Shown here: piece after piece, positions 30,929-34,443 of the stretch
Position numbering within the stretch: position 1 is the first letter of the stretch
How the letters are laid out: each line of letters begins with the position of its first letter
From: Burkholderiales bacterium
GTDB lineage: Bacteria; Pseudomonadota; Gammaproteobacteria; Burkholderiales; SG8-39
Reading direction: 5' to 3'
Assembly (NCBI GenBank): GCA_017880775.1
Contig: JADGRQ010000007.1
Span: forward strand, 1 to 64,000
DNA: 64,000 nt
The notes under the pieces: generated by a model
Seen by the model: the letters and a program-made list of their open reading frames with translations, nothing else
Told to the model about the DNA's origin: nothing
The model's database searches: none
Translations under genes and position numbers: made by a program

Positions 30929-31543
30929 TCAGAGCATTCCCAGCCTGCGGAAGCACAGGAACAATTCGCGGCAGGCCCAGGCATCCGTGGCCGCGTAATT
31001 GATCTGCGCTGCGGACAGGCGCGGCGCCGCCCAGTTCGACGTGCGGTTGCCTTTGGGGATGCGGAACCCGAGAAAAATCCCGGCGAGGTTGCGCAAACCC
31101 GTCTGGCGCAGGCCGTGGCAATGCGCGACGTGACCGGCGTCGAGAATGGAAGCCTCCACCAGCGGGAACACCAGCTTGAGTTGGCGCAGGTCGTGTGCCA
31201 GCGACACACCGACCTTGACGATCCGCGGTTCGGCCACGAACTCGGCGACCATCGCGGAAAAATCCAGCCGCTGCAACTGGAACAGGTACACCGCGCGCGC
31301 GGTGGCCACCTGGACCAGGCAGGGCAGATGGCTCTCACCTTTCCTGAACGCGGGCCGCGTCTCGGTATCGAAGCCGACCACGCTTTCTTCGCGGATGTCC
31401 GCCAACGCGCGCTCGGCGTGCTCCGGCGTGGCGACCAGATGCACTTCGCCCTCGTAGCGCCGGATCGGCAGGCCCGCCATTTCCTCCCGGGAAATCGTGC
31501 GAAGGAATTCGCCCGGCAACGCAGGTGCGCCGGCTCGTTTCAT
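30929..31543 (-). CDS. 3'-5' exonuclease, DEDD superfamily (RNase D-like)
   Basis: A 204-residue single-domain nuclease. Exo I is VVGFDTET, Exo II is VGVSLAHDLRQL and Exo III is NYAATDAWACREL, with the Tyr of the DEDDy subtype. It lacks the HRDC domains of RNase D, so it belongs to the short plant-Werner/RNase-D-like group acting on RNA or single-stranded DNA. I took the ATG at 31543 (MKRAGAPALPGEF). It is cotranscribed with the SDR gene upstream (8-bp gap). Confidence 0.9.
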   Translation of the reverse strand: MKRAGAPALPGEFLRTISREEMAGLPIRRYEGEVHLVATPEHAERALADIREESVVGFDTETRPAFRKGESHLPCLVQVATARAVYLFQLQRLDFSAMVAEFVAEPRIVKVGVSLAHDLRQLKLVFPLVEASILDAGHVAHCHGLRQTGLRNLAGIFLGFRIPKGNRTSNWAAPRLSAAQINYAATDAWACRELFLCFRRLGML

Positions 31544-31551
31544 CGCGGTGG

Positions 31552-32292
31552 TCAGTTGAAATGCAGTCCGCCGTTCACCGGCACCGTCTGGCCGGTCATG
31601 TAGGCGTTGGCGATCACCATCAGCACGGCCGACGCCACCTCCTCGCCCGTGCCGAGGCGGCCGACCGGAATGCGCGCCGCATTGGCGATGCGGTGCGGCG
31701 CGATCATCTCGGTCGCGATCAGCGAGGGTGCGACCGCGTTGACGGTGATTCCGTCCTTCACCAGCCGCGCGGCGTACCCGCGCGTCAGCCCCTCCATCCC
31801 GGCCTTGGACGCGTTGTAGTGGGTGCCGACCACGCCGGCGCCGCGTGCCGCGCCCGAGGAGATGTTGACGATGCGCCCCCAGCGGCGCGCGCGCATGCCG
31901 GGCCAGACCGCCTGCGTGCAGAGGAAGGCGGATTTCAGGTTCACCGCGATGGTGCGGTCGAAATCGGCCTCGGTCAGTTCCTCGAGGCTGCGGCTGAGCG
32001 CCACCCCCGCATTGTTGACCAGCACGTCGATCGGGCCGAGCGCGGCCTCCGCGCTCGCGAGCATGCGCGCCACGGCCGCGCCCTCGGAGACATCGGCCCC
32101 GAGCGCCGCGCTGCGGCGCCCGAGGCTGCGGATCGCGGCGGCGACGGCCTCCGCTTCGGCCGAGCGCTCGCGATAGTTCACCGCCACGTCGGCGCCGGCC
32201 TCGGCCAGCGCCAGCGCGATCGCCTTGCCGATGCCTCGCGAGGCGCCGGTCACCAGCGCGACACGGCCGGAGAGATCCGGAACGATCGACAT
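31552..32292 (-). CDS. SDR-family oxidoreductase, FabG-like
   Basis: A 246-residue classical short-chain dehydrogenase. The cofactor motif is TGASRGIG, followed by NNAG, the catalytic Ser in NISSGAARG, and Y-x3-K in THYNASKAG. The basic residue after the glycine motif (NYRER) suggests NADP(H). It may be a 3-oxoacyl-ACP reductase homologue or another keto-reductase; the substrate is not fixed. No fatty-acid synthesis genes are adjacent. Confidence 0.9.
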   Translation of the reverse strand: MSIVPDLSGRVALVTGASRGIGKAIALALAEAGADVAVNYRERSAEAEAVAAAIRSLGRRSAALGADVSEGAAVARMLASAEAALGPIDVLVNNAGVALSRSLEELTEADFDRTIAVNLKSAFLCTQAVWPGMRARRWGRIVNISSGAARGAGVVGTHYNASKAGMEGLTRGYAARLVKDGITVNAVAPSLIATEMIAPHRIANAARIPVGRLGTGEEVASAVLMVIANAYMTGQTVPVNGGLHFN

Positions 32293-32401
32293 CGCGCAAG
32301 TCTACTGCGCCGCGCGCTCGCGAGGCCAATCTGCGAATCGATTGACCTCGGTTAACAACGCGGCATTTCCGGGCTTGACGCGCAAGCCCGGAGTGATAAG
32401 T

Positions 32402-32593
32402 TGGTGGCGAGCTTGCAAGGGTGGGCTGTGATGCGGGATTCCTGGCAACCGTCAGGGTACCGCGCCCGGTGCCGCTGCAATAGCAGGTCAGCAAGGTCAA
32501 GCGCGGAAAGTTTCCGCGTAGACGATAGCGCCGACATGGCGCAGCCCGGTGGATCCGGGCACAAGGCCCCGCCTGCGGCGGGGCCTTTCATTT
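32402..32593 (+). ncRNA. candidate structured RNA ending in a strong terminator, family unknown
   Basis: Between the SDR gene and the OYE-family gene lies about 190 bp rich in inverted repeats on the plus strand: GCGG/CCGC with an inner CCTG/CAGG (32433-32463), CGCGGAAA-G-TTTCCGCG (32502-32518), GCGCC/GGCGC (32528-32542), GCCCGG/CCGGGC (32544-32560), then an intrinsic terminator. An upstream hairpin CCGGGCTTG/CAAGCCCGG lies at 32370-32392. No open frame in it looks real. It could be a small RNA or a leader controlling the downstream gene. I could not match it to a known riboswitch. Confidence 0.5.
32563..32593 (+). terminator. rho-independent terminator
   Basis: GGCCCCGCC-TGC-GGCGGGGCC, extended by AA/TT, followed by TTTCATTT. 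It lies about 50 bp before the OYE-family gene, on the same strand, so it either ends a small RNA or acts as an attenuator. Confidence 0.88.
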
Positions 32594-32642
32594 GTGCAAG
32601 CCCTCCTCGAAATGATCTGCGGGCAAGCGTTAAGATTCGTCC

Positions 32643-33764
32643 ATGCCACTGCTACTGCAACCGCTCGAACTGCGCGGCCTGCGCCTGCGCAACCGCTGCG
32701 TGATCTCCCCGATGTGCCAGTACTCCGCGAGCGACGGGTTCGCCAACGACTGGCACCTGGTGCACCTCGGCAAGTTCGCGCAGGGCGGGGCGGCGGTGGT
32801 GTTCGCCGAGGCGGCCGCAGTCGAGAAAATCGGCCGCATCACGCACGGCGACCTCGGCATCTGGTCCGACGAGCACTTGCCGGGCCTGCGCCGCATCGCC
32901 GGATTCCTGAAGGCGAACGGCGCCGCGCCCGCGATCCAGCTCGCGCACGCGGGCCGCAAGGCGAGCATGCAGCGCCCGTGGTTCGGCAACGGGCCGCTCG
33001 ATGCGGCCGACCGCGCGCGCGGCGACGAGCCCTGGCAGATCGTCGCGCCGAGCCCGATCGGGCTGGACGAGGGCTGGCTGGTGCCGCACCAGCTCTCGCT
33101 CGCCGACATCGACGCGATGAAGGCGGCCTGGAAGATCGCCGCCGGGCGCGCGCTCGCCGCGGGCTTCGAGATCGTCGAGATGCACTCGGCGCACGGCTAC
33201 CTCGCGCACGAATTCCTCTCGCCGCTGACGAACAAGCGCACCGACGCCTACGGCGGCAGCTTCGAGAACCGCACGCGCTTCACGCTCGAGATCGCTGAAA
33301 CCATCCGCTCGGTGTGGCCCGAAGACAAGCCGGTGTTCGTGCGCCTGTCTTGCGTCGACGGCATCGAGGGCGGCTGGACCATCGAGGATACGGTCGCACT
33401 CGCCGTGCAGCTCAAGGTCCGCGGCGTCGACGTGATCGACTGCTCCTCGGGCGGCCTGATGGGCTCGGCGACGGCGGTGCGCGTCAAGCGCGGGCGGGGA
33501 TTTCAGGTGCCGTTTGCCGAGCGGGTGCGAAAGGACGCCGGCGTGAAGACCATGGCGGTCGGGCTGATCCTCGACGGAGCGCAGGCCGAACGCATCCTGC
33601 GGGCGGGACAGGCCGACCTGGTCGCGATCGGGCGCGAGGCGCTCTACGACCCGAACTGGCTGCTGCACGCCGCAGCCGCGCTCGGCGCCGAGGGCGGTTT
33701 CGAATCCTGGCCGGTGCAATACGGCTGGTGGCTCGACAAGCGCCGGCAGTCGATGTCGCGCTGA
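32643..33764 (+). CDS. NADH:flavin oxidoreductase, Old Yellow Enzyme family (YqjM-like)
   Basis: A 373-residue FMN enzyme. NRCVISPMCQYSASDGFANDWHLVHLGKFAQGG is typical of the YqjM/xenobiotic reductase subgroup with its Cys flavin modulator. IQLAHAGRKAS carries a catalytic His, and EIVEMHSAHGYLAHEFLSPLTNKRTDAYGGSFENR and VAIGREALYDPNW are further family blocks. Such enzymes reduce activated alkenes of unsaturated carbonyl compounds. The gene follows the strong terminator and structured region upstream, and the next gene starts 13 bp downstream. Confidence 0.93.
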   Translation: MPLLLQPLELRGLRLRNRCVISPMCQYSASDGFANDWHLVHLGKFAQGGAAVVFAEAAAVEKIGRITHGDLGIWSDEHLPGLRRIAGFLKANGAAPAIQLAHAGRKASMQRPWFGNGPLDAADRARGDEPWQIVAPSPIGLDEGWLVPHQLSLADIDAMKAAWKIAAGRALAAGFEIVEMHSAHGYLAHEFLSPLTNKRTDAYGGSFENRTRFTLEIAETIRSVWPEDKPVFVRLSCVDGIEGGWTIEDTVALAVQLKVRGVDVIDCSSGGLMGSATAVRVKRGRGFQVPFAERVRKDAGVKTMAVGLILDGAQAERILRAGQADLVAIGREALYDPNWLLHAAAALGAEGGFESWPVQYGWWLDKRRQSMSR

Positions 33765-33777
33765 TCCGGGTCGCGCA

Positions 33778-34443
33778 ATGATCCGTTCCGCCTTTTTCTC
33801 CGCCGCCACGATCCTGTTCGCAGCGTTCCTCGCTTCGAACGCGTTCGCGCAGGCGCCGCACACGCACCAGCACAGCTTCGCCGACGCCGACAAATGGAAG
33901 GAGGTGTTCGACGACCCGGCGCGCGACGAATGGCAGAAGCCGCACCAGGTGATCGATGCGCTCGCGCTGCCGAGCACCGCAAGCGTTGCGGACATCGGCG
34001 CGGGCACCGGGTATTTCGCGGTGCGCCTCGCGCACATGGTCTCCAAGGGCCGCGTCTACGCGGTCGACACCGAGCCCGGGATGGTCAAGCACCTCGCGGC
34101 GCGCGCGAAGGAAGCCGGGCTTGCCAACCTGCAGGCGGTGGCCGGCGGCGCGGACGACCCGCGCCTGCCCGCGAAGATCGACCTCGCGCTGCTGGTCGAT
34201 GTCTATCACCACATCGACGCGCGCGGGAAGTACTTCGCGAAACTGCGCTCGTCGCTCAAGCCCGGCGGCCGCGTCGCGATCATCGACTTCAATGCCGCGT
34301 CGCCGGTCGGCCCGCCGCCCTCCGAACGCCTCGCGCCGGAGGCCGTCAAGGCCGAAATGAAGGCCGCCGGCTAGGCGCTCGCCGCGGAGCACGCGTTCCT
34401 GCCCAACCAGTACTTCCTCGTCTTCGAGCCGGCGGCGCGCTGA
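33778..34443 (+). pseudogene. exported class I SAM methyltransferase, interrupted by a late TAG
   Basis: The frame starts with a signal peptide (MIRSAFFSAATILFAAFLASNAFAQ) and carries the SAM motifs VADIGAGTGYFAVRLA, VYAVDTEPGMV and ALLVDVYHHI. A TAG at 34372-34374 ends it after 198 residues, yet the same frame continues for 22 sense codons with the family-type ending HAFLPNQYFLVFEPAAR up to TGA at 34441-34443. The TAG stands where a Tyr codon is expected (AAG-Tyr-ALAAEH). So this is either a nonsense mutation, possibly still partly active because only the last strand is lost, or a sequencing error. Periplasmic location is predicted from the signal peptide. Confidence 0.8.

Follow-up and report, generated by a model that had tools for sequence, protein, structure and literature searches.

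A predicted stand-alone RNA gene upstream of an OYE-family gene belongs to a structured RNA family of two betaproteobacterial families, with FNR/Dnr-like upstream sites in many relatives

The intergenic region in front of a flavin oxidoreductase gene of a Burkholderiales bacterium carries, on the plus strand at 32409-32589 of the window (the whole 64,000-nucleotide stretch that was analysed), what we predict to be the gene of a stand-alone structured RNA, with a predicted promoter and terminator of its own. Covariation and positional conservation across two families of bacteria support an RNA family with a conserved fold. The original prediction had described inverted repeats and a strong terminator before the oxidoreductase gene, and every one of these features was found at its claimed position. 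Among the relatives we distinguish two types, and the RNA of the window is of type I. The features of the region are the following.

30929-31549: 3'-5' exonuclease gene (PF01612), near the RNA
31552-32292, minus strand: SDR gene, 5' neighbour of the RNA region
32342-32355, plus strand: degenerate FNR/Dnr-like dyad TTGAC-CTCG-GTTAA, 7 of 10 consensus positions, centre at about -60
32375-32402, plus strand: predicted sigma-70-type promoter, TTGACG (32375-32380), 16-base spacer and TAAGTT (32397-32402), aligned with homologues
32409-32589, plus strand: structured RNA, the predicted transcript running from about +1 as far as the terminator, supported by alignments, covariation and the models R1 (E 1.2e-30) and R2 (E 2.8e-28), whose training sets both contain the window sequence
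32409-32416, plus strand: 5' strand of helix P1, pairing with 32491-32498, with one G-G mismatch in the window
32433-32463, plus strand: core hairpin with a GCGG/CCGC outer stem, a GAU/UA internal loop, a CCUGGC/GUCAGG stem and an AACC loop
32475-32486, plus strand: small junction hairpin Hc, CUGC-AAUA-GCAG, from sequence and folds
32491-32498, plus strand: 3' strand of P1, supported by partner swap and covariation
32502-32518, plus strand: hairpin Hd, 4 of 6 type I pairs changing on both sides
32528-32542, plus strand: hairpin He (GCGCC/GGCGC), 98.7% of type I cells paired, C-G replaced by U-A in type II
32544-32560, plus strand: hairpin Hf (GCCCGG/CCGGGC), 3 of 5 type I pairs changing on both sides, 76% of the cells in alignment A4 paired
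32563-32595, plus strand: intrinsic terminator with an interrupted U tail (UUUCAUUU), stem nearly invariant in aligned members
32643-33764, plus strand: flavin oxidoreductase (OYE-family) gene, PF00724 Oxidored_FMN, E 2.3e-67

The stretch 32395-32596 folds with a minimum free energy of -106.4 kcal/mol, compared with -85.7 +/- 4.9 kcal/mol for 200 dinucleotide shuffles (z -4.2), one of which folded equally well. The terminator stem (32563-32587) comprises 11 pairs and is the sole terminator found within 32200-32700; the ATG of the oxidoreductase gene at 32643 lies 55 bases past it. This terminator type, GCCCCGC/GCGGGGC, is common to the family, and in most members a CA breaks up its U tail. Folding the sequences singly gives a consistent picture: P1 closes a junction that holds up to three inner hairpins, and Hd, He, Hf and the terminator follow. 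The core hairpin is the most conserved element and almost invariant among members. The G-U pair of its CCUGGC/GUCAGG stem is conserved, the A in its internal and apical loops is invariant (all 15 type I and all 16 aligned type II sequences), and the invariant unpaired positions are located here. The GGCAACC...GGTGCC pairing proposed by the original prediction can be read in the window and finds no support among relatives: its GGC sits inside the core hairpin, and a riboswitch reading of it was rejected, GGTGCC standing at that place in only three of 15 type I sequences. Hc is missing in the short type I forms. In type II, AAGGAG or GAGGAG, both Shine-Dalgarno-like, is found in or beside the Hc loop (L046, 4866-5049; L016, L017, L018, L029 and L033), and given the absence of CsrA described below, these motifs may be a contact site for the 16S rRNA 3' end or for another protein. 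On the far side of the oxidoreductase gene, a methyltransferase-like ORF (33778-34443) has an in-frame TAG at 34372-34374, after which the frame continues for 22 residues to a second stop; this TAG is either a true truncation or an assembly error.

The family comprises 37 members from two betaproteobacterial families (f1 and f46), to which it is restricted within the genomes searched. BLASTN of 101 genomes, the window's own included, found matches in 12, of which 10 were real on reading the loci; L010, L012 and L014 were discarded as terminator only. The parts common to the homologues are the core GCGGGATTCCnGGC-RACC-GTCnGGGTACCGC, the downstream hairpins and the terminator. R1, a covariance model built from 11 sequences, matched 30 of the 98 family genomes, 28 of them judged real on reading and several carrying two copies; L043, L044, L047 and L048 were judged not real, and L045 was omitted from later counts as too degenerate. 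Across 399 genomes of the order, R1 matched 16, with 11 real, and thereby added f46, while G192, G206, G300, G402 and G440 were dropped as terminator only. At E 0.01, R3 matched 127 of the 399 order genomes; among 12 weaker R3 loci inspected (L113-L122, L125 and L127), only L113 (G436) was real, and it is not included in the operator and swap tests below. A pattern scan of named genomes returned 21 stretches, 10 real and nine judged to be chance (mostly coding), with L082 and L087 excluded from these verdicts; the real matches come from Betaproteobacteria, Burkholderiales or Proteobacteria genomes. The distribution is patchy, about 70 of the 98 family genomes having no match, a count to which the incompleteness of many of these genomes contributes.

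The genome of the window holds two copies, one of type I and one of type II, the second copy being on contig C19. The two types differ in context. At type II loci in the two families, clpB adjoins 18 of 22, a DUF179 gene adjoins 13, and 21 have one or both as neighbours; at type I loci, clpB or DUF179 is found in 0 of 15 and a 3'-5' exonuclease gene lies nearby in 6 of 15. These counts, taken over flanks of 2 to 10 kb, are a description and not an independent test, since the type lists were made after the contexts were known. Two loci are unusual in themselves. In genome G133, two tandem RNA copies lie with about 100 bases between the model matches (L054, 3141-3526, minus strand); one has a -35-like box and lacks an FNR-type site, and the second has a site at -40 and lacks a -35 box. 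At locus L042 (1501-1630, minus strand), P1, the 3' hairpins and a good FNR-type site persist and the core hairpin has been lost, either by decay or through a changed function; this loss indicates that some copies decay.

Covariation among relatives, whose absence the original prediction had taken as counting against it, is present both in the partner swap of P1 and in an alignment of 15 type I sequences (A4), for which a structure of 48 pairs was scored. In A4, 19 of the 48 pairs change on both sides, as compared with 7.1 +/- 1.8 in shuffles (0 of 500 as high), although the relatives are not independent, so that shuffle tests overstate significance. Standard pairs fill 92.3% of the A4 cells, and sliding the partner reduces this to at most 44.4%. 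Within type I, six of the eight pairs of P1 show changes in both partners. Because P1 is poorly aligned between the types, it was tested by exchanging 3' segments among 36 members: the own segments gave a mean of -22.3 kcal/mol, against -20.06 (sd 0.47) for permuted ones, with 0 of 20000 permutations as low. The P1 of the window is among the weaker cases and not specific, since its 5' segment pairs better with 32 of 35 foreign 3' segments than with its own. The terminator stem barely varies and thus carries little covariation information. A small coding gene was considered and rejected, as the stops differ by frame and member in the eight members checked and L026 and L016 lack an ATG. L020 and L046 lack a stop in any plus-strand frame, so that the stop check alone is not conclusive, and it is the indels together with the covariation that argue for an RNA.

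Upstream of the RNA, the homologues have TTGAC-like -35 boxes, mostly with 16-base spacers; the -10 box was placed by eye for twelve members and for L042. That of the window, TAAGTT, is weak, and a strict consensus promoter scan of the window region found none. The promoter-like boxes put the predicted RNA start right at the first helix. We scanned 37 members from -160 to -26 of this start for the dyad TTGAT-N4-ATCAA, which FNR, ANR and Dnr recognise. Dyads with at least 8 of 10 consensus positions number 18 over the 37 members; 14 of them, one in each of 14 members, are centred at -59 to -62, with single cases at -70 and -40. Within a 28-base stretch (-73 to -45), 15 of the 37 members have such a dyad; shuffled sequences gave 0.21, and never more than 2 over 300 rounds. 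The dyads of L066 and L089 are perfect. Most type II promoters have none. L035b has a dyad at -40 and lacks a -35 box, and L036 and L041 carry TTGAG-N4-CTCAA, which is perfectly symmetric but built from another half-site. FNR activates from -61.5 at class I promoters and from -41.5 at class II promoters, and judging from position, the dyads at -59 to -62 would stand where a class I FNR/Dnr activator binds.

The genome of the window encodes four Crp/Fnr-type proteins above the Pfam cut-off. Of the three that were scanned, none approaches the Fnr cut-off, and one resembles CRP while scoring below the CRP cut-off; a search of the whole genome for canonical Fnr likewise gave no match close to its cut-off. 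Comparison of 15 type I genomes for the site (at least 8 of 10 at -40, -59 to -62 or -70) and for canonical Fnr (E below 1e-30) gave nine with both, two with the site only, none with Fnr only and four with neither (Fisher p 0.011), in a table that is small and post hoc and includes some incomplete genomes. A perfect 9-base inverted repeat at 32369-32391 (CCGGGCTTG-ACGCG-CAAGCCCGG) overlaps the -35 box of the window and was not seen upstream of other members; it could be an operator replacing the decayed FNR-type site.

Starting from the computed family, fold, covariation, syntenies and operator position, we infer that the gene is transcribed, that its regulator is FNR or Dnr and that it acts in trans on a partner. 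A stand-alone trans-acting RNA with Crp/Fnr control in the relatives is the explanation that we consider probable. The RNA gene of about 180 bases would be one of two paralogous members in the genome of the window, and its own promoter and terminator suggest that the RNA acts in trans. A Crp/Fnr-type activator, either FNR or Dnr, occupying the site near -60 would turn on the RNA in many relatives, probably in response to falling oxygen or to nitrogen oxides. As the site of the window is decayed and a canonical Fnr was not found there, its control may have changed. The likeliest mode of action is for the rigid junction to offer its nearly invariant core hairpin to a binding partner, more probably a protein than an mRNA, given the scarcity of conserved single-stranded sequence and the interrupted U tail; the protein-partner step taken alone we regard as having about an even chance. 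A wider proposal is tentative and on balance unlikely: that this is an undescribed betaproteobacterial class of regulatory junction RNAs whose invariant core hairpin binds a specific protein without Hfq or CsrA, the old clpB-linked copy serving in stress or housekeeping and the duplicate being controlled by FNR/Dnr for low oxygen.

An Hfq-dependent base-pairing small RNA of the functional type of FnrS, PhrS and AniS, with a seed that represses or activates mRNAs at low oxygen, would differ from the best explanation in the last step only. It would account for a stand-alone gene and for FNR-type sites in relatives, and Hfq is encoded in the genome of the window (E 1.6e-29). However, nearly all conserved sequence lies within helices or the core hairpin, CA interrupts the U tail in most members, and none of 19 relatives has a gathering-score Rfam match to any small RNA family, so that we consider base pairing through Hfq possible, if somewhat doubtful. 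The other possibility raised by the original prediction, a cis-acting leader (riboswitch or attenuator) sensing a ligand for the OYE-family gene, draws on the arrangement in the window, where the RNA is on the same strand, 55 bases upstream and terminator-ended. Among 18 loci counted, those without an overlapping call by a crude ORF caller, 15 have their next gene on the opposite strand and three on the same strand, and these genes are unrelated, which argues against a conserved cis role; together with the missing riboswitch family match, this leaves the leader highly improbable, and it is the small RNA, with its predicted promoter and terminator, that stands.

Titration of CsrA/RsmA, as by CsrB or RsmY, is hinted at by weak sub-threshold rsmX/RsmY scores at L062 and L032 and by the AAGGAG of type II Hc loops. 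One of the RsmY scores is on the antisense strand, however, GGA is not conserved in the core, and PF02599 was found in 0 of the 98 f1 genomes while E. coli and two other control genomes were positive. The absence of CsrA from all 98 speaks against a CsrA sponge in f1, and the probability of this function is close to negligible. An accidental series of GC-rich hairpins, or repeat DNA in decay, might be suspected from the GC-rich region and from just two copies in the genome, but it is refuted by the covariation tests and by positional conservation across two families, and its probability is virtually nil.

The original prediction had recognised no known riboswitch or other family, and Rfam 15 bears this out, with zero gathering-score matches in the whole window and in the 19 relatives. 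With E up to 10, the best window match is the terminator hairpin read antisense, and sub-threshold matches are mostly to the terminator. Burkholderiales-1 and sbcD are candidate structured RNAs listed for Burkholderiales (Weinberg 2010, PMC2864571); the comparison covered sbcD, which is RF01757 and has no match in the window, and Burkholderiales-1 carries no Rfam number in the table of that paper. In the titles and abstract openings of the literature surveyed, the RNA family was not recognised. A covariation-backed RNA family outside Rfam 15 is described in lineages represented mostly by metagenome bins. From its conserved operator position one would predict that low oxygen or nitrogen oxides induce the RNA, and its core hairpin is a defined bait for a partner search.

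FnrS of Enterobacteria, PhrS of Pseudomonas and AniS of Neisseria are small RNAs activated by FNR or ANR. Like them, the RNA described here is stand-alone and intergenic, ends in an intrinsic terminator and has an FNR-type site upstream in many members; unlike them, it has no Rfam match, a larger multi-helix junction, an interrupted U tail and a clpB-linked paralogue mostly without an FNR-type site. It shares with RNAs of the CsrB/RsmY type its many hairpins and some GGA loops, but the GGA positions are not conserved and its f1 hosts lack CsrA. It resembles 6S RNA as a structured small RNA of about 180-200 bases, but 6S RNA forms one long rod and the window RNA a branched junction. As a candidate for 6S itself, the window locus was rejected: the genome has a single RF00013 match, on contig C69 (G000:C69:45557-45746, L015; E 7.5e-7), and since it scores 41.8 bits against a gathering score of 46.4, 6S in this lineage looks divergent. 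The kind, a stand-alone small RNA with FNR-type control, is known; what is new relative to Rfam 15 and to the titles and abstract openings surveyed is the family itself, with its junction fold and two lineages.
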